Shown here: one piece after another, positions 19,975-31,300 of the stretch | Layout of the letters: each line of letters begins with the position of its first letter | Position numbering within the stretch: the stretch's first letter is position 1 | The notes under the pieces: generated by a model | The model's database searches: none | The model's input: the letters and a program-made list of their open reading frames with translations, nothing else | Told to the model about the DNA's origin: nothing | Source: Diplosphaera chodatii | Taxonomy: Eukaryota; Chlorophyta; Trebouxiophyceae; Prasiolales; Stichococcaceae | Length of the DNA stretch: 64,000 bases | Direction of reading: 5' to 3' | Assembly (NCBI GenBank): GCA_032358165.1 | Contig: JAALGY010000031.1 | Location: 310,001-374,000, forward strand | Made by a program: the position numbers and the translations under genes

Positions 19975-20185
19975 GGTTGCACCGTGCAATCGTGCAGATG
20001 TCCACGCACTCCTGCGTCCAATGCTGCTTCACACAGCGTCAGATGTGGCAGCTGTCGCTCAACTCGCTACCAGCAAGCCATTGCCCGGCGGCCACTGAGC
20101 CCCCAGTTACTTCCCGCCGCCACTGTCAAGGTGCTTTGCGGCCGCACTTCCGCTGCCGCCGCATCACCAAAGGCCGGGCCCCGCG

Positions 20186-23100
20186 CTACTTCCTGCCGCC
20201 GCCGCCCCGCCGCCGGTGGGGCGCCGTGCCGCCGCCGCCCACGTTGCTGAAGCCGGGCCGCTCCAGGTCGGGCGCCAGGTCGGGCACCATGGCGTCCCGG
20301 GTGGTGATGGCCACCCCCTCCAGCGCCCACACCCTGCGCAGGCCCCCATGTCCAGCTGTAGCATGTGTAGAGGAGTGTATCGAACGTTCAGCAGAATGGA
20401 TGTAGACAGGCTGGAACTTGAACACGGTGAGACACCAGGGTGGGAAGCACAGCAGACAGCGCTGTCGCACCGCAGCTGCACGTCGCCGGCGGCAGCGACG
20501 CTGAACCAGCCCAGCCCGGCGACGGCGATGTCGGTCGTGCTGCTCCTGAAGGTGGCGCCGCTGACGGACACATCCGCCGCCGCGAGCCGCGGCAGCCGCT
20601 TCATCCGCTTCTCGTCGCCCAGCGGCGGCGTCAGCCGGCTGCCGGCGTGCTGCGCCTGCCTGCGGCGGTAGGGGGACATGTGTCGGGCAAGCCTCGCTGG
20701 CTGGCCCAGTCATGCGTGCTGCGGGCCGTGAATAGTGAGGCGACATCGCGCAGACACACGAGCGCTAGCCACTAGGCGAAGCGTTTGTGCGCGTCTGCAG
20801 ACGTCGCCGCACCAGTGACAGCACCACCCCAGATGTTGTGCGATGGCGCATCCACACGTGGACACTGAGCACAATTTTGCAGGTCCGCAGGCATGTGCCT
20901 GCAGATGCCAGGTGCACAGCTACGACTTTGGCATATATTGGCAGGACTGACAGCAGCAGGGAGGACCCCACTTCTCGGCGGCGGCGTCGGTGCGGCCGAA
21001 GTGCGTGACCAGGTCGGCGGACGCCCACAGGGTGATGTAAATGGTGGCGGCGGGGGCGGACGCCACGTCCAGGCGGGCGACGCCGCCGACCAGCACGCTC
21101 TGGCCGGCCGCGATGCGGAAGGTGCGCGGCTTCAGCGGCTTCCGCGGCAGCAGCATGCGCACCTGCGGGCGGCGGGAAGCGGAGGTTTGCACAGCGCCGC
21201 GAAAAGTTTCCCTGCTCGCAGGCTGCCCTGCACAGCTACAGGCCGCCGGAACAGCAGAAGCCAAAAAAAACGCTCAAACCAATGTCTGATACCACACCAG
21301 ACTGTTGACGGCAACGCTGAGTTGGAGAGAGTGGCTGCACCTTTTCGGGTCCCACCAGACTGTTGGACACACAGTGCTCAATTTGAAAAGCTGAATGGAA
21401 AGAGTGGCTGCACCTCCTCGGGGTCCAGGTACGCCGCCAGCTGGTGGGGGTGGGGAACGCCCGGCGTGTCAAACATGCCGCACTTGACGGGCATGAGCCC
21501 CTCCACCTTGAGCATGCCTGCGCATGAGCAGCCGGCGCCCGTCGCACATGGGCATGGTGGGCGGCCACATGCGCATTGGGGCTGCGCACTACTCTGCCGG
21601 AACGCCTGGCACAGCAATGGCCATCTCGGATCAGCACCCTAGTCAGCCGGATGCTCAAACGCCGCCTCATTAATCCACCAGGTCTGGTGCATTGACGCTG
21701 CAGCTGCTGGCAGCGTCGCAGCGGATAATTGGACCGGCAGGGGAAAGATTCGCACCCAGGGTGGTGCCAGGCAGAGCAGCGGTGGTGATATTACGGCCGG
21801 GGCCCAGGCCCACCGCCTGCCGCATCGCGTTGATCAGGCTGCTCTTGCCGGCATTCTGCAGATGTGTGCAAGCCACCTCATTGCCGGGCGCTCCGCCTGC
21901 AGACATGCCTGCTGCGTGCTGCTTGCTGCACCGCTGCAGGGTGGCAGACGCATCCCGCCAGGGCATCGGCACAGGCATCACGACGGAAGAGTCCAAGCCA
22001 GGCCAGCCAGAGTGCTGATTGGCGGGCACCTGGGCGCCGATGACCCAGACGTCGCCCTTGGCGCCCGCCGCGCCCCGCAGCTCCTGCAGCAGGCGCGCCA
22101 CGCCGGTACCCTTCACGCTGCTGACCAGGTGCAGCGCCGACAGCCGCGGGAAGCCGCCCTGCTTCGCGCGCGCCCGCACCCATTGCTGCGCAGCAGCAGG
22201 CGCCGGGCGGTCGGGCCAGGCTGCTGTGTCCCACGCGCATGTGGCAGCGTCTCGGGCTGGGAAACACTCAGAGACACCGATCGCCACGGCGCTCGACGCA
22301 ACAGGAAGGCGGCAGGGCCGAAGCGGCCCCAAATCGACCCTGCAGATGTGCGCCTACAGGCAGCGCCGCCCCTACCCACGCCGCGCCCTGCCCCGTGCAG
22401 GGCGCTGCGGGCCTGGGACACTGCAGCAGCTGCGAGATTCGGCCGGGTGCTGTCAGGCTCAGCAGTGAACAGGGGTTCAGCGCTGCCGCCGCACCTCCAG
22501 GCGGGCGCGGGGGATGTGGTGCGGCAGCAGGTCCGCCTTGTTGGCGACCAGCACCAGCCGGAAGCCCCCCGACAGGTACTGCGCCTGCCCGGCCGGCCCG
22601 CCCGCCTGCGCCTCGTCCCAGGCGCCTGCACGTGCAGGACGGCGTGCTCGAGCCCGCGAAGCAGACTCCCCCTGGAAGACCACGCTGCCCAACCCTGCAG
22701 AAGCCGCGCCAGGATGCCGCCCACGCTTCTCCAGCCCTGAAAGCGAGGGTCCACCCACGGATGCCGGCCTAGGAGCAGCGGCAGCAGAACAGGGCGCCTG
22801 TGCACGCAGGCCGGTCGCAGCATGTCGCAGCACACGCCTCGGGGCACGATGGCGGACAGCGCGGCGCGGGGCAGGCTGCCGTCAAAGTCGGCCAGGTCCA
22901 CGACGCACAGCACCACCGCCCGCCGGTGGGGCGTCGCCGCGATCCTGCGCCCCACCTTGCGCCCCAGGTCGAACGCAGGCATCTGCGCCTCGGCCGCCCT
23001 GCTCTTGACGGCCCTGCGGTTGTTGACTTGAAGGGCTGGTTAAAATGTCAGCTGCTGCGGAACACGGGGCCAGGTGTCAAAAGGCCGGCATCTTGGCTCT

Positions 23101-24062
23101 CGATGACTCAGCAGGTGCTGGTGCTCAAGTCTGAGCTGGGGCGCCATTAGTGAGACGTGTCAACAGTTCGATACAGGGTCTGGCTGTCCAGAAGGTACGA
23201 CGTTCGTTGAGCCGCGGTCGGCACCCACCCGGAGTGGGTGAGGGAGTGGCAGCGGGCGCACAGCACGGGCACGCCGGCAGCCGCCTCCGCCGCTGCAGCC
23301 GCCGCGACCTCCGGCAGCTGGCCCAGGGAGGGACCCGCCTCCTTCCTGCCGCCCGTCCCGCCGCCGCCGCCGGCCTCGTCCCCCCACTCGGCCGCCATGT
23401 CGTTGAACACGTCCCACTGGTCGGCTCCCCTGTGGCTCCCACCCCGGCCGCTGCTGTCGTCATCCGACGCTGATGAGCCGCTGCTGCTCGCGGCTATCCG
23501 CTCCGCAAGTCGCGCGGCGGCCGCCTCAAGGGAGTCATCACGCGGGCCCGCAAAGTCATCTGCGTCTGCCGCTCTGCCCTTTCTCCGGCTGCCTGCTGCT
23601 GGTACTGTTGCTGCTGGCTCTGCTGCATCAGGGTCAGCGCGGGTGCCGCCTGTTTTGCGGCCGCTGGCTGTCTCATTCAATCCCATAGCAGTCATTGCTT
23701 CCGGTTGGGCACCCGCAGCCGCCTGCTGCAGCTGCTCCAGGAAACGCTTGGGCAGCTGGAAGTACCTGTGCGAGCCAACGAGGCTTGTGAGGCCGGATAG
23801 CAGGTAAGAGCGTGGCACGCCCAGCATGTGGCAGGAGCTCAGCGCAGGCGTACCCTGGGGCGTCTGCATTCTGCTGCTGGAGCTTCACGCCACAGCCCGA
23901 GCAGTACTGCGGGGTGGCCCTCTGCAGCAGCTTCTCGTCGATGGCTGCGGTTTGGGATGACCCTGGCGGCTGTGCGTCCGCTGCCTGCTTCCGAGCAGTC
24001 GCCGCTGCTGCTGACGAACAATGCCGCAGCGGCTGCAGCATGCACGGCGCCGCCAATGGCAA
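20186..24062 (-). CDS. BPG2: Circularly permuted YqeH/BPG2-type chloroplast GTPase
   Basis: Proteins of this family act in chloroplast ribosome (16S rRNA) maturation. Exon 1 (24062-23854) holds a short Ala/Ser-rich, transit-like N-terminus and the first zinc knuckle YCSGCGVKLQQ. Exon 2 (23765 to about 23232) begins GYFQLPKRFLEQ, contains a long Ser/Asp/Gly-rich insert, and ends with the second knuckle CARCHSLTHSG. The GTPase motifs then come in the permuted order typical of the family: VDLADFDGSLP (about 22.9 kb), G4 NKADLL (about 22.55 kb), an exon ending DVWVIGAQ (about 22.04 kb), G1 NAGKSSLINAM with PGTTLG (about 21.8 kb), and G3 FDTPGV with LDPEE (to 21414). The C-terminal domain follows: VGGVARLDVASAP with ITLWASADLVTHFG (about 21.0 kb), STTDIAVAGLGWFSV (about 20.5 kb) and EGVAITTRDAMVPD to TAG 20186-20188. 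The start is the first ATG before the zinc knuckle; a longer transit peptide upstream is possible. Family assignment is firm, the BPG2 paralogue choice less so. Confidence 0.9.
21294..21425 (-). repeat. Tandem duplication covering a splice donor of the BPG2-like gene
   Basis: Two adjacent copies (21294-21352 and 21353-21425) share CACCAGACTGTTG and AGAGTGGCTGCACCT. On the minus strand the second copy is the end of the exon encoding LDPEE with its GTGCAG donor at 21413-21408. The other copy, inside the intron, keeps the same donor sequence after GAAAAG and so forms a decoy donor. Confidence 0.7.
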
Positions 24063-25047
24063 GCGTCTGCTCCGCCTACAGCGGCACCGTGCAAGCCGTC
24101 ACGGGCTGGGTCGCCCTCCAGACTGCTGCATTTGGATGCGGTGCCAGTATGTTCGCATGCCTCCGCAGCGGGCCTTGCCTTTACGATGCGCACCTCAACA
24201 AGGGCGGCGGCCCATGCTCAGCGCATTGATGGAGCGACACGGCTGATGAAAGCTGTCTACTGTGCGCGCAAGCTGTCTGACCACACGGCAGCTGCCTGCT
24301 GAGAGACATGCCCCTGCCGAGGCCGGCGCCGCAGAGCCGACGCAGCACCCGGTTGCCTACAAGCTGCAGCAGCATGCGCGACTGCGGCTGAGGTCGGCTC
24401 AAGTTTTCTTGCGAGGCTGAGTGCAAGTGCTGTCACTGCTGTCGGAACTGTGGTTGCCTGGTGCTCGCCGCCCGTATCTCAGCCGTCAACGCCCCACAAC
24501 TGGTCCTCAGCGGTGCGACCTGTTGACGCTGCACATCATGGGCGCCTCACCTGAACCAAGAGGCGTACTGCTGCTGTAACGATGCGGAAATGGCGAGAAA
24601 AGCGAGCAGATTTGGGCATCAACTTGTCAACTCCGGAACCTCGTGTGGCACAGCAGGGTCGTCAGACGATGTGATCTAACCGTTAACCTTGCATCTGCGT
24701 TTATGTCGTCGCAACAATGCGATGTGAGCAACTTGCAATGCCATCGTGCGCTCTCCGTGCTGCCGGCGGGGCACCACGAGCGTACAGACGCCCTGTGGTG
24801 AACTTGAGGGCCGTGACAACAAAACTGCCACGACCTCCTGGCTTGCTATGCGGTGCCTGCTGGTTGATGCAGTATGCCTTGCTTGTCTTTAGAGGTGAGA
24901 GCGTCTGATTTGTTGTTATGCAAAACCCGCTGCGGTGCGACATGGGCACCAACTGTTGTCGCCTGGTTTGCAGCTAGTCGGTGCTGTGCCAGCACAGTGA
25001 CACCTACAACGCCCCAACAGCGCTGTTGTGGGCCGGCAGCCATGCGC
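24063..25047. other. Intergenic region, no gene seen
   Basis: It lies between the 5' end of the BPG2-like gene and the tRNA gene. Only short unsupported open stretches occur. It presumably contains the BPG2-like promoter. Confidence 0.5.
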
Positions 25048-25051
25048 AAAA
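25048..25051 (-). terminator. Pol III TTTT terminator of the permuted tRNA
   Basis: A TTTT run on the minus strand directly follows the trailer strand of the outer helix, 13 bases after the 5' half ends. Four T residues are a minimal RNA polymerase III terminator. Confidence 0.55.
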
Positions 25052-25159
25052 TGCCAGATTCTGCCCAAAGCGAGAATCATACCACTAGACCACTATCCCA
25101 GAAACCGAGGGGACAGCCGCGAATCGAACGCGGGACCTCTCGCACGTTTGAGTTGGCAC
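25052..25159 (-). promoter_or_regulatory. Bulge-helix-bulge-like fold that joins the permuted tRNA halves
   Basis: The leader upstream of the 3' half pairs with the trailer after the 5' half. An outer helix forms between GTGCCA (25159-25154) and TGGCAT (25056-25051). A central helix forms between CTCAAA (25152-25147) and the loop bases TTTGGG (25069-25064), with one G-U. Between the central helix and the anticodon stem lies a 3-nt bulge C-G-T (25146-25144), to be cut after its second base. The other cut, after G at 25064, falls in an internal loop (CAGAATC opposite A). This is the arrangement tRNA-splicing endonuclease recognises. Confidence 0.85.
25064..25144 (-). tRNA. Circularly permuted tRNA-Pro(UGG) gene, 3' half before 5' half
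   Basis: On the minus strand the first segment (25144-25109, 36 nt) is the 3' part of a tRNA: anticodon-stem strand GCGAG, variable AGGTC, T arm CCGCG-TTCGATT-CGCGG, acceptor strand CTGTCCC and discriminator C. A 9-nt spacer TCGGTTTCT (25108-25100) follows. The 5' part (25099-25064, 36 nt) comes next: acceptor strand GGGATAG, D arm GTCTAGTGGTATGAT, anticodon-stem strand CTCGC and loop TTTGGG. Joining 5' part to 3' part gives a 72-nt cloverleaf with a full acceptor stem (one G-U), a 5-bp anticodon stem, a 7-nt loop TTTGGGT with anticodon TGG, and a 5-bp T stem. It is nearly identical to plant nuclear tRNA-Pro. The junction lies between G37 and U38, exactly where eukaryotic tRNA introns sit. 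No normal-order copy is present here. Expression would need splicing into a circle followed by trimming at both tRNA ends. Confidence 0.96.
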
Positions 25160-25186
25160 AAGCTACCGATTGGCAGAAATTCTGCA

Positions 25187-25194
25187 GATATATC
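25187..25194 (-). promoter_or_regulatory. TATA-like element upstream of the permuted tRNA
   Basis: The palindrome GATATATC lies 43 bases upstream of the 3' half on the minus strand. Upstream TATA-like elements are common at plant and algal tRNA genes and could help here, because the internal A and B boxes are in reversed order. Confidence 0.35.
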
Positions 25195-25522
25195 TCAGAG
25201 CAACCATTTTTCAAAGTGTTGGCGGTATTAGGGTTTAGTCAGAAAGCTTCTGCCTCATGAGTAGAGTGGAGAGTGTTTCCTTGAACCGAGAGGGCGTGCA
25301 AGGCACAAGGTCGATGCGACTCACTGGTATGCTGGGCACCGATGAGCTCAGCGACACAAGCGGTGCAGGTTGGGCATGTCTATGTAAGGAGCGAACGGAG
25401 GAAGTAGGAGAAACCGCCGATCAGGAAGTTGCACAACCTTCATCTCGAGTGAGACGGGGGTGCGGGACGTTCACATCTACATGATCGCCATATCCACTGA
25501 AGTCAGACAGCTTCCTGCAGAT

Positions 25523-27358
25523 ATGAGGCGAGCTATTGCGCTTGGGGGCCTGCTGCGCCAGCTGGGCGAAGCCTCACGGTCGACATCACTACCAGCAGCA
25601 TCAACGTGCCTGCAGACGATTGCAGCAGCGTCCGCAGATGCCCTTGCAGAAACCACTGGCGCCTTGCCATCGAGCCCATGCCGACACATCAGCACCAGCC
25701 GTGCCGCAGCAGCTCCTCTGCATATAGAGGATGAACCCTACAACAGGTGCATTTACGCAGCCTGGGCCTGGACCCACTGGCTGTATGTGAACTGCCTGGA
25801 ATAAAAGTGATCTGATTGAACGGTTCTCATCCTGACGCGACACCAGCGCTTGAGGCCAGGAGCATGTATCACCTCACCATGCCGAGTGTGAGCGGCAAGC
25901 AGCGAACACATTCGTGCAGGCAACGGCAGCTCATAGCGCTGGGCAATCGGCTGCCAACGATGGCGCCGGACACCTGGATCGCGCCAGACGCCGTGATCAT
26001 CGGCGATGTGGACCTGTATGACCGGGTGCATGCTGTCGCCTACTATCAAGGCTGCGCAGCGTCCGGCAGGCAACTGCTGGCAGCATTGGCATGGTGCATT
26101 GCGAGTGCTCTCTCAGCATGGAATGTGTCCTCCGCCCCCTCACAGGTGTCGGTGTGGAGCGGCGCGGTGATCAGGGGCGATCTAAACAGCATTCGAGTCA
26201 ATGCCTTTTCCAGCATCGGCGACCGGAGCGTCCTCCATGCAGCCAGGTGCAGAACAGTTCCCGCCTGATGCTGGTGCATCAGAGTACATCAGCATGTGTC
26301 CTCAAGGGCTCGTGGACTTGTTGCGGCCTGCCCTGTGTCAGGAAGTGTGCGCTCTCAACACGAAGTCATCCGCCGCTATGATCTTGCAGGAGTTCACCGA
26401 CAGGGCTGCCAGCAAGCACCATCATTGGGCGGTACGTGGTCGTGGGGCAGGGCTGCCTGCTGCGCAGCTGTCAGGTCCAGCACGAGGCGGTGATCGGGGA
26501 CAGGTGCGTGATATACACCGACCTCGATACTGGTTTGCTGACGGCAGCTTCTTGCATCGAGCATCACGCCCAGCTGGACTGGAGAAGCTGCTGAGAAAAG
26601 CGAGGGGTGATGTCTGGGCTGCTTGGACAGGAGCAGCCCGCTTCAGGATGGTGGAAGGCCAGCCAGTGCGGGTTGCCCACGTCTATATGGTGCAGTCACA
26701 CACCTGCAAGTGACCTCTGCAACAGGAGCATCCTGCTGGAGGGGTCGGTGGTGGAGGGGCAGTCGGTGCTGGCCCCGGGGTCGCTGCTGCCGCCAGGGCG
26801 CCTCATCCCGCGTGGCCAGCTGTGGGCCGGCTGCCCGGCGCGCTACGTGCGGGACCTGACCGCCGACGAGGTGGGGCGCCCTGCCCCGCCTCTGTTGACA
26901 TGTTCACAGGGCTGCCTGGCAACAGTGCGATCACATGCTGGATGGTACTCAGCAGCAGCAGCAGCAGCAGCAGCACAGTGCTGCACAGCGCCATTCTACA
27001 GTTTGTCGGCGGACACTGAAACTGCAGGTGGCAGCTGCATGCGTCGTGTTGACGGCCTGGGTACTTGCGCTGCAGAAAGCATCCATCAAGGAGCTGGCAG
27101 AGTCGCTGTTCCCGCTGGTGGACGCGCGGATTGACGAGACGCTGCCCAACTCGGAAGCCTACAGGTGGGTCCGCAGAGCAACTGGGCTGACGACACGACC
27201 ATCGAGCTGAGGTTCTGTACAATCAGGACCGAGACTGGTTGTGTCTGTTGCGCAGGGAGGCAGAGGCGGCGCGGGCTGCACTGATCGCCAAGTCACCTGA
27301 GTACAGCGCGCTGCTATCGGGCTGGGAGGACACCGAGGTCACTCCTAACGACATGTAG
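25523..27358 (+). CDS. Gamma carbonic anhydrase-like subunit of mitochondrial complex I
   Basis: This left-handed beta-helix protein belongs to the matrix-facing gamma-CA domain of plant and algal complex I. Exons: 25523 to about 25620 (MRRAIALGGLLRQLGEASRS, presequence-like), about 25921-26024 (LPTMAPDTWIAPDAVIIGDV), 26146-26246 (VSVWSGAVIRGDLNSIRVNA), 26390-26503 (STIIGRYVVVGQGCLLRSCQ), 26726-26870 (LEGSVVEGQSVLAPGSLLPP, then LWAGCPARYVRDLT), 27028-27163 and 27255-27358 ending at TAG. Hexapeptide repeats are clear. The active-type motif GHxxxLHGC is replaced by GQGCLLRSC, so two of the three zinc-binding histidines are missing. That makes it the CAL (inactive-like) type rather than an active gamma-CA. 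The first-exon donor and the start are uncertain. Confidence 0.87.
26951..26974 (+). repeat. (AGC)8 microsatellite in an intron
   Basis: Eight consecutive AGC triplets lie in the intron between exons ending 26870 and starting 27028 of the gamma-CA-like gene. Confidence 0.9.
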
Positions 27359-27396
27359 GCAGCAGGCAGCTGTGGCTGCCCTGTTGGCAAGTAGCA

Positions 27397-27401
27397 TGTA
27401 A
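27397..27401 (+). promoter_or_regulatory. TGTAA polyadenylation signal candidate
   Basis: TGTAA lies 39 bases after the stop codon of the gamma-CA-like gene. Confidence 0.45.
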
Positions 27402-28340
27402 GCAAACCCATGCGGGGGGTGGGGTACAGATTTGAAGCTGCGGTCGGCAACAACGGCACACTGGAAGGAATGCACCTGAGACTAGTGTTTTACAGCAAGC
27501 TCAGCTTCTAGCTGTGATCAGAGTGTCGACAAGTCGCTGACAAGCTGCTGGCAAAGCAAGTAGACAAGCTGTCACAGAGCTTGCACATTTGGGCCATGTG
27601 ATGGCGCATCCGGCGCTGTGCCCAACCGAATGATGTAGGCGTTGCAACGATCGTCTTGCCTCGTGTTGCCTCGTGATATCGAAGGCAGCAAATGCGGCGT
27701 GAGCCTTTCTGATGCTCATCTATCGGCATAGTGCAGCAGCTTCTTACAGCCTGGACACAGGCATTGCCCAAGGTTCCTGGAGGTTACTCATCACCTGATC
27801 ACGGAGCTTCTGCACAGCACGTCAACTTTCCTTCGATTGCACAGCATCGGCGGTCAGCCTTCAATGTATATCCGAACACCCTGGGATGCACAACATGACT
27901 GCAGGTGGCTCATGACCGCTCTCGACCTGCCCACCTGGCCGGATCATCGACAGCAACAAACCGGATCAGCACAGCTACTGCGGCGCTCAATCAGCATGCT
28001 GATGAAGATCCATGATTGATGGCTTAGCGCCACATTCGTGGCGCATACGCGCGGCAGTTGTCTTAGTGATTGCCGTGGCGGTGAGCGCTGCCGGACATCA
28101 GCGCCAAGCAGCACAGCAACCTGGGTGCGTCGCATCACCCCGTCGCATCGGGGTGTGTGCTGTGCGTGTAAGTTACTTAAGTCGCACACGACACCGCACT
28201 TGTGCCGCAGGAGCGTGGCAGTGGCATCACCGCGACTGCCTGAGCTCTGCGAGCAACCAGAAGTGGCACAATGCCAGCAGCCTCCAGCATTGTCGCAGGA
28301 CACCGGCGGCATGTGGCAGGTGGGATGAACCTGCTAGACC
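27402..28340. other. Intergenic region, promoter side of the channel gene
   Basis: No coding signal is convincing here. Earlier 5' exons of the CASTOR/POLLUX-type gene may start within the last 300 bases. Confidence 0.35.
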
Positions 28341-31300
28341 GTGCCTGCGTTGGCAGCGTGTCATCCAGCGATGCGGATCGTGGTCTTATATCGTGGTCTT
28401 ATATCATCTACAACTGCCATCTGGCCGCTGCGCCGAGGCAACATCCATTCTCGGGTCGGATGGCAGGTCGGTGGCCCCCTGGCTGGCGTGCTGAGCGCGG
28501 CGGCATGTGCGCTGCTGGCGTGGAGGCATGCAGACAGCCTGGCACGTCTCTCTAACAGCCTAACAGCAGGCGTCTCGGCAGGCCGGAGGTCAGCGATGCC
28601 AGCACACTCGCTCCAGAAGCGCCTCGCCTACAACGTGGACTCATGGTAGGTGGACGTAAGGTGGACACCTCCTGGTGTATTTCGTTCTGCTAATGCTTGA
28701 GTGCGACTGTTGTGACATAGCGCCCCTGGCTGTTGGCCGTCTAGGACATGCATGTCCTCAACCATCACACGCTGCCTTTGCCTGTTGGTGGAGGCACCAG
28801 GTAGTGTGCAAGCGCGCTGCCGTCGGCTTACATGCACTACATGACAACCGGCAACCGCCTCCGCAGGTTCTCGCGCAGCCCGTACTCCAAGGTGCTGGCG
28901 CTGCTGTACCTCACGCTGGCGCTGGTGCTGGTCGGGGCGCTGGCGCTGCGCGCCGTGACGCAGCAGTCCCTCTACTCCGCCGTCTGGGAGACCATTGCAG
29001 GTGCTGGTCGCGGCTGCTGTGCACGCTGTGGAGTCGGCAGCAGGATTATAAAGCGAGGGCAGAATGGTCGCGCTGCTGGCTGACGACAAGCAGATCCAGC
29101 AACCCTGCACAGCTTGGTGACGGCACGTGGTGCATTTGCAGGCGTCGGGATCGACTGGACGTTTGCGTCGCTGGACGAGGATGCTGCACACACGGTGTAC
29201 GGCTTTGCGGGCCGCGCCGTGGCGGTGTTCGTCTCGCTCGGCGGCGTGTGCGTCACCGCCCTGCTGCTCGGCATCGTGTCGGAGCAGATCAGCCACTGGA
29301 TCGAGGACCTGAAGCGTGGGCGCTCCGAGGTGCACACCCAAGTATCTGAGTACCTCGTCTCAATCACCGATTGGCGGCCTTAAAAGAACCATGCAAACAG
29401 CACATGGCCGCTCTTTCGTCCCCAGCAATGGCGTGTTGTGCGGCACTTGCCAGCGGTGTTGGTTGTCTGCACCTCGCGTGCCACTGACATGCCTGGCATG
29501 ATGCATTCAGGTGCTCGAGAATGGGCACACCTTGATTCTTGGGTGGTCTAACAAGGTGTGTGTGCTTTGTGTGCCACCTTCACAGTGCTTATGCAACCCT
29601 ACATGGGGCTGGCATGCCCGATGAGCTGCCACAGAGCTTGTAACACACACAACATGCAGGTGGTCACCATTGTGGACCAGCTGTGTCTGGCGAACATGTC
29701 TGAAGGAGGTGCGTGCCGACGGCATCACCGCTGCATGCAGCATCATGCTCGGTCTCCAGCTGGCACTCTGCTGTGCACGTGCAGCATGCGCCCTGAACCA
29801 TACCCGTCCAGCTGACAGGCAAGGCCAGGCTGTTCGACTGTGACACCACACACTGCACGCAGCAGCTTCTCGCCTGCAGGACGGCCAATCGTGATATTGG
29901 CAGACATGGAGAAGGAGGAGATGGAGGAGGAGCTGCGCAATCACAACATAGACTTCCTAGGTTCCCATGTGGTCTGCAGGTCTGTTCCCTTGCATGCATG
30001 CATGCCATCCAACACCCTGCGATGAGCAAAGCCGACAGCTGCTACAGGTGACCATCGAGGCTTACCAATCTGCCAATGGCGCGGAGACTGGCAAGGACGG
30101 CAAGCTGATGCTGGTCATACTGCAGGAAGGGCAACCCGCACCTGGAGAACGATCTGCGGAGGGTATCGGTAGAGACAGCACGAGCAATCGTGGTGCTGTC
30201 CACCTGCGACCACGCTGATCAGGTCAGTCATGCAGCCCGAAGTTCTGCCGCTTGCCAAGGGCTCATTTTCTGAATACAATATCGGTTCGTGTGAACAAGA
30301 CAGGGACAAGTGTCACCAGCTTGATCAGGTGCTGCCAGCACGCATGCTTTGCTTAATCTGTCAGTAACCGGTTTTCCTGCCAACGATGCAGGCAGACTCG
30401 CGGGTGCTGCGCACGGTGCTCAGCCTGATGGGCGAGAACGACCGGCTGCTCAAGGCCGGCCGGCGCGGGCTGCGGGGCCACATCGTTGCGGAGCTGGCCG
30501 ACATCGACAACGAGCCCCTCGTGCGCATGGTCGGCACCGACAACTGCGGCGTGTACACCGTGACCAGGTATGTCAGGTCTAGGATCACTGCGGTGTATGC
30601 AGGGCGTGGATTATGACTGCGCTGTGCAGCCTTGTTGAGGCTTGTGGCATGCGATATGTGCAGCGGCAGCACCCTCAGCTTATCGAGCGCTCTCTGCCTG
30701 CAGTCATGACATGATCGGACGAGTCATGATCCAGTGCGCACGGCAGCCTGGCCTGGCGGCCGTGTGGGAGCAGCTCATGGGTTTCCGCGGGGTGAGCGCC
30801 TCTGCACAGTGCCCACCCGGTCCGCCAGTCAGACAACAAGGGACTGCAACCCCCTTGCAAACATGCAACATGCGTGCAGCGTAGCCAGTATAAAATCATG
30901 GGATCTGTCATTGCTGACTGTTGCATGCGTGAGAATATGAGAACAGCCCCGTTCGACATCAGGTGGAAGACGGTCCAAACGCAAGATCATCCCCTGCAGG
31001 ATGAGTTCTACCTGCGGGAGTGGCCCAGCCTCGTCGGCCGCCGCTTTGCAGAGGTGCTGCTCATGTTCGAGCACGCGATGCCTCTGGGCATCCGGTCTGC
31101 GGCTACAGGGGAGGTGCTGCTGAATCCCGCAGACGACTATACTCTTGCACAAGGTGCGCACGGCAAGACGAAAGCGCTAAACTGACACAACAGCCTGGTC
31201 CCCACCCCTGCAGGCGTGCCACTCCAGGACACCTCTTCTGAAAGCAGAGCGCAAAGCCACCGCCTTGAGCATCACACGATACTCAAGCCGGGCGCCCCAT

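Follow-up and report, generated by a model that had tools for sequence, protein, structure and literature searches.

A very probably functional nuclear tRNA-Pro(UGG) gene in circularly permuted order, among at least nine permuted tRNA loci of a trebouxiophyte genome

Can a nuclear tRNA gene whose 3′ half is encoded upstream of its 5′ half still be a working gene? The question is raised by a minus-strand locus in a 64,000-nucleotide stretch of algal DNA (the window; C25:310001–374000 of an 85.6-Mb, 55-contig assembly), which an earlier note had read as a circularly permuted nuclear tRNA-Pro(UGG) gene. The gene order described there is present: on one strand, minus 25144–25064, the 3′ half is followed by a 9-nt spacer and then by the 5′ half, and the break falls at 37/38, where the note had placed it (Table 1). 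The rejoined halves form a 72-mer that is called as tRNA-Pro(tgg); in native order, neither ARAGORN nor Rfam calls a tRNA at the locus.

Because circularity was to be avoided, the locus was searched with a covariance model (R2) built from artificially permuted non-Pro tRNAs: 23 colinear nuclear, chloroplast and mitochondrial tRNAs of the same assembly, rearranged at 37/38, with no Pro tRNA and no naturally permuted gene among them. Its sole match in the window at E ≤ 10 was 25064–25144 on the minus strand (54.4 bits; E = 3.7e-19, under a rough calibration). Across 47 other loci, the seven permuted loci supplied scored 50.4–62.5 bits, and the remaining 33 matches (E ≤ 0.01) scored at most 27.4. 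A rule-based scan returned one match in the window and none in 40 simulated 64-kb first-order Markov windows.

The rejoined halves fold as a canonical cloverleaf, with 7/7 pairs in the acceptor stem, 5/5 in the anticodon stem and 5/5 in the T stem, and with the usual invariant bases T8, A14, GG, T33 and C73 in place. The claim that this complete 72-nt tRNA has all of its stems paired holds for these three and falls short in the D stem, where three of four positions pair (by eye). The D-arm letters are the same as those of the colinear Pro(CGG) gene of this genome.

Table 1. Features of the permuted tRNA-Pro(UGG) locus, in the direction of transcription (positions are those of the window)
Feature	Position	Strand	Basis or remark
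Upstream element AAACCCTAATACCG, first half of bipartite motif	25223..25236	-	common to other nuclear tRNA genes
Second half of bipartite upstream motif (GAAAAATGGT)	25203..25212	-	sequence
TATA-like ATATAT, upstream of leader	25188..25193	-	by eye; putative function
Proposed outer-helix leader strand GTGCCA	25154..25159	-	partner TGGCAT at 25056-25051
Central-helix leader strand, leader -3 to -8	25147..25152	-	pairs with anticodon-loop positions 32-37 (25069-25064), 6/6
3-nt bulge CG/T, predicted 3′ cut before position 38	25144..25146	-	read from sequence; putative cut site
tRNA-Pro(UGG) 3′ half, positions 38-73, first in transcript	25109..25144	-	36 nt; 36/36 identical in paralogue L002
Spacer, 9 nt, discriminator base to position 1	25100..25108	-	no internal TTTT
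tRNA-Pro(UGG) 5′ half, positions 1-37, anticodon TGG	25064..25099	-	36 nt; 36/36 identical in L002
TTTT, likely Pol III terminator just past 5′ half	25048..25051	-	sequence

Across the assembly, four tRNAs are encoded in permuted order, at no fewer than nine loci: two for Pro(UGG), three for Pro(AGG), two for Phe(GAA) and two for Cys(GCA). A DNA search of the genome for Pro genes gave nine matches, namely the window gene (L001), a second Pro(UGG) locus (L002), three Pro(AGG) loci (L003–L005) and four half-matches that make up two colinear Pro(CGG) genes (L006/L007 and L008), each with a 32-nt intron at 37/38. The anticodon and half order of L001–L005 were read letter by letter. The permuted Phe(GAA) gene L086 and the permuted Cys(GCA) gene L087 score 64.6 and 58.9 bits, respectively, with a model (R1) built before either was known. 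Both tRNAs have permuted copies on C17 and C45, the second Cys copy being seen by coordinates only. In all eight permuted genes that were read, the junction is at 37/38, the only position for which the models searched. That the assembly artificially swapped the halves has next to no chance of being right, as the same order recurs on five separate contigs for Pro (C25, C11, C10, C3 and C38) and on C17 and C45 for Phe and Cys, and the spacers differ between the copies read.

The note had proposed looking for a normal-order Pro(UGG) gene elsewhere. The genome DNA search (7/7 candidates scored), which did detect the colinear CGG halves, found two permuted Pro(UGG) genes and no colinear nuclear Pro(UGG) or Pro(AGG); the chloroplast contig carries its own Pro(UGG) (L017). 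Colinear copies of Phe or Cys were likewise absent from the two matches that each search returned, both of the candidates scored being permuted; such searches score the best candidates only and might overlook a colinear copy that has diverged. An RF00005 search of the genome, in which the best 63 of 1132 candidates were scored, placed 24 of the 63 outside the two organelle contigs, including one weak match (C41) that ARAGORN does not call. A plant-type tRNA query, with only six candidates scored, recovered genes for initiator Met, Trp and Lys; those for Phe, Tyr, Cys, Ala, Ile and Asn did not appear, absences that carry little weight at that number. Separately, C1 carries an array of eight Trp-tRNA-like matches spaced 227–264 bp apart (1790116–1791977); of the three loci checked there, ARAGORN calls one full gene only.

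The duplicated loci permit a comparison of the parts of each gene. Window positions 20001–30000 (L055) align in a single, inverted order with a stretch of C11 (L056), with an identity of 71–74% in the three longest pieces and 86–97% in shorter ones, and many nuclear tRNA genes sit on paired contigs. This single-order 10-kb alignment, together with the paired occurrence of tRNA genes on partner contigs, points to an ancient whole-genome duplication or to a hybrid origin as a possible background. Between copies, the halves are identical in Pro(UGG) (72/72), in Pro(AGG) a/b (72/72) and in Phe (73/73). In the same three pairs, 7/8 (the 8-nt spacer of L002 being the shorter one), 11/13 and 6/11 aligned spacer bases match, as do 84/103, 79/99 and 75/89 aligned leader bases, with 14, 22 and 27 gap columns. 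Given identical halves against diverged spacers and flanks, the permuted order is therefore probably older than the duplication, and both halves appear to be under selection. A SINE-type repeat with a permuted tRNA-like head would also leave dispersed copies, and tRNA-derived repeats do exist. However, only nine matches (a lower bound, at least nine) occur in 85.6 Mb, the L055 and L056 copies lie within collinearly aligned 10-kb stretches (approximately 71–74% in long pieces) that are duplicated segments rather than insertions, and the acceptor, anticodon and T stems are perfect; we give this explanation almost no credence.

The note had claimed that the flanks supply a 6-bp central helix with the anticodon loop, a 3-nt bulge and a 6-bp outer helix. 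The central helix and the bulge are there, and both are conserved in L002. The outer helix is also present at the window locus, but it is poorly conserved and is the weakest part of the junction, because four of its six pairs are kept in register in L002 and none is found in strict bulge–helix–bulge register in the Phe genes (both by eye). The central helix includes an A–I pair, position 32 with leader −3. In an A–I pair, position 32 is paired with the intron base that is third from the 3′ end. The term is used for eukaryotic pre-tRNAs, in which the pair marks the cut (excerpts of PMC4090602).

Treating the leader as the end of an intron, we compared five representative permuted genes with 20,000 sets of shuffled leaders. 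Positions 32–37 form 26 of 30 possible pairs with leader −3 to −8 over the five genes (which are not fully independent, the Pro representatives being related); the shuffles average 13.1 and none of the 20,000 reaches 26, and 11 other registers give 10–14 of 30. The A–I pair is present in all eight permuted genes read, and 154 of the 20,000 shuffles have it in all five genes tested. Leader −5 tracks the wobble base: it is A opposite U34 in Pro(UGG), U opposite A34 in Pro(AGG) and C opposite G34 in Phe. The permuted Cys gene breaks this pair (G with A), so that the covariation holds in four of the five genes. The Pro(AGG) gene L005 breaks the pair at base 36, and the Phe genes have only three contiguous central pairs. 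The junction is compatible with the tRNA-splicing endonuclease, as the note had maintained, by its central helix and A–I pair, and by a strict outer helix in part only.

Two readings other than a permuted gene bear on this evidence. The rarity of permuted tRNA genes and the abundance of tRNA fragments in genomes would favour a rearranged pseudogene or two fragments juxtaposed by chance; this is extremely unlikely here, where the halves are identical in three pairs while the spacers have diverged, the helix keeps its register and follows base 34 in four of five genes, and four different tRNAs are arranged alike with no colinear copy found. A split, trans-spliced tRNA, in which each half is partnered with a half elsewhere, has in its favour that leader and trailer could in principle pair between molecules. 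We consider it very unlikely, as the halves lie 8–30 nt apart across the permuted genes without an intervening TTTT, the 7-bp acceptor stems match in the four tRNAs checked, and the matches of the Pro DNA search include no lone halves. To judge from its sequence, the window locus is very probably a functional nuclear tRNA-Pro(UGG) gene with a type II (37/38) permutation; the trebouxiophyte that carries it has at least nine permuted loci, which between them cover four anticodons.

At the window locus, promoter-like sequence lies upstream, a T-run follows the 5′ half and the spacer is free of terminators. TTTT begins 5–20 nt past the 5′ half in seven of the eight permuted genes read (in L107, the remaining one, the sequence read extends just 10 nt beyond it) and occurs within none of the eight gene bodies. 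Several nuclear tRNA genes, colinear and permuted, are preceded by a bipartite motif, approximately AAACCCTRAAWCCG followed after about 8–11 nt by GAAAAAYGGC. The first half of this motif has 51 matches in the genome versus 11 for a reversed control pattern. Forty-one of these 51 sites were read: 6 precede permuted tRNAs (L001, L002, L005, L086, L087 and L107), 15 precede colinear tRNAs (13 called by ARAGORN; L105 and L106 by eye), one stands before a probable elongator-Met gene (L088) and one before a Y-RNA-like candidate (L077), and 18 have nothing recognised downstream; one of these 18, L079, is 181 bp upstream of a further site that belongs to the same tRNA gene. The motif occurs within 200 nt of 10 of 27 colinear genes found independently of it (one weak variant; two Trp rows left out) and of three of the five permuted Pro genes found by DNA search, L003 and L004 having no exact match. 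It is neither universal nor specific, and the upstream elements are best regarded as putative promoter elements.

The genome has no match to the TFIIIC B-block domain (PF04182), which introns may split; 4 of 14 control genomes match it. Tau95 (PF09734) also has no match in any control genome, so that search is uninformative. A loss of TFIIIC could have permitted permutation, an idea that these searches neither favour nor disfavour. An A-box pattern occurs at 29 sites. Three pairs of identical A-boxes lie exactly 65 bp apart (C17:1956658/1956723, 1957568/1957633 and 1974021/1974086), a spacing shorter than a tRNA; these may be 5′ halves that have been repeated, which would represent an intermediate step towards permutation.

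Some loci met along the way are of interest in their own right. L088 (C17, near 2,009,261, minus strand), called by neither ARAGORN nor Rfam, is by eye a probable elongator tRNA-Met(CAT) gene; its anticodon intron is long, and its D loop is unusual and lacks GG. GTGCCTTTC in this D loop is complementary to GAAAGGCAC just upstream, possibly a sign of an ectopic intron. The Y-RNA-like candidate L077 (1444–1353, minus; C9, near 268,738) lies downstream of the tRNA-type upstream motif, scores 32.4 bits (gathering threshold, 38; E = 0.0023) with the nematode sbRNA family RF01656 and carries GGTCCGA and GGGTTATC. A TROVE/Ro60 domain was not found in the genome, in which introns could hide it. YrlA, a bacterial Y RNA, carries a tRNA-like module; the permuted Phe precursor (L086, 1574–1692) matches it weakly (27.3 bits; gathering threshold, 69).

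The permuted genes are most likely matured through a circle. By analogy with known systems, RNA polymerase III would start at an upstream promoter, read through leader, 3′ half, spacer, 5′ half and trailer, and stop at TTTT. The transcript would fold as a cloverleaf, its leader pairing with the anticodon loop, and the tRNA-splicing endonuclease would cut after G37 and before U38. A ligase, possibly RtcB-like given the exons present, would join G37 to U38 into a closed circle, in which the 9-nt spacer of the window gene is predicted to form the acceptor loop. RNase P and tRNase Z would then take out the spacer, and CCA would be added. We infer the polymerase, the enzyme roles, circle formation and charging from known systems. 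Partial matches above the cut-off to the splicing endonuclease family PF01974 occur on C47 and C15 (30.6 and 29.3 bits), and 20 exon matches to the RtcB family PF01139 occur on C29, C30, C36 and C8. The excerpted text of PMC3978253 describes such a pathway for Cyanidioschyzon merolae and green algae: a linear pre-tRNA is cut by the endonuclease at the junction and ligated into a circle, and the spacer is taken off by RNase P and tRNase Z.

Two contigs, recognised by their tRNAs and, by eye, their proteins, carry mitochondrial (C54) and chloroplast (C55) genes. Among the 120 matches listed for mitochondrial atp6, the best has 95% identity and those with names are Prasiola crispa (89%), Lobosphaera incisa (88%), Prototheca wickerhamii (84%) and Picochlorum (83%). 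We take these four to be Trebouxiophyceae and the host, on this one gene, therefore to be a trebouxiophyte.

Permuted tRNA genes are a known kind of gene. The note knew of no described case in core chlorophytes; Auxenochlorella, however, is a trebouxiophyte. Its permuted tRNA genes were reported in 2025 (excerpts of PMC12636532; preprint PMC12633428), which contradicts that statement. The genes described here share with those of Auxenochlorella the algal class and the nuclear order of 3′ half before 5′ half (PMC12636532, in part); the two hosts differ in that atp6 of ours is nearest, among the named matches listed, to Prasiola and Lobosphaera. As in the type II genes of Ostreococcus and Micromonas (excerpts of PMC3978253), the junction is at 37/38, spacer lengths are of the same order and Cys(GCA) is permuted, and some of those genes also have an AT-rich upstream region. 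Pro and Phe are permuted here, and neither is listed in the table of 34 permuted tRNA genes in PMC3978253. Cyanidioschyzon merolae, as covered by the same excerpts, shares the gene order, the upstream TATA-like sequence and the downstream T-run, and the circle pathway is expected here as well. Its junctions also fall at 20/21, 50/51 and 59/60, unlike those of the eight genes read here, for which only 37/38 was modelled.

Permuted genes for Pro or Phe do not appear in the titles and abstract openings of the mostly non-subscription literature on permuted tRNAs, green algae and trebouxiophytes that we surveyed. Within the same scope, we found no published precedent for these isotypes, for the covariation of leader and anticodon, for paired permuted loci or for the near-identity of a permuted UGG gene and a colinear CGG gene. 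Standard tRNA finders under-count permuted genes: ARAGORN, in native order, called none of the seven permuted loci on which it was run.

The origin of permuted tRNA genes and their importance to the cell are described as open questions (PMC3978253, in part). Here the duplicated loci let selection on each part of a gene be read, and one genome holds colinear and permuted forms of a near-identical tRNA-Pro, with a leader that follows the anticodon. Tandem duplication of an intron-bearing gene predicts an intron-like leader and trailer; when the 32-nt Pro(CGG) intron was compared with four leaders and four trailers, similarity was not in excess of chance, as shuffles reached the observed score in 613–1948 of 2000 trials, a result that does not count against the model with sequences this short. 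The permuted Pro(UGG) gene differs from the colinear, intron-bearing Pro(CGG) gene at 2 of 72 positions and from the permuted Pro(AGG) gene at 8. As UGG is thus closer to colinear CGG than to permuted AGG, the order of the Pro halves would have changed, in one direction or the other, at least once since the family diversified, unless gene conversion has intervened. We propose only tentatively that permutation is changeable within one tRNA family in this way, and that, for Phe, Cys, Pro(UGG) and Pro(AGG), the nucleus may have no source other than circle-forming genes. If this is true, it would be an upstream promoter element, present before colinear and permuted genes alike, that lets the order of the halves change while expression is kept.
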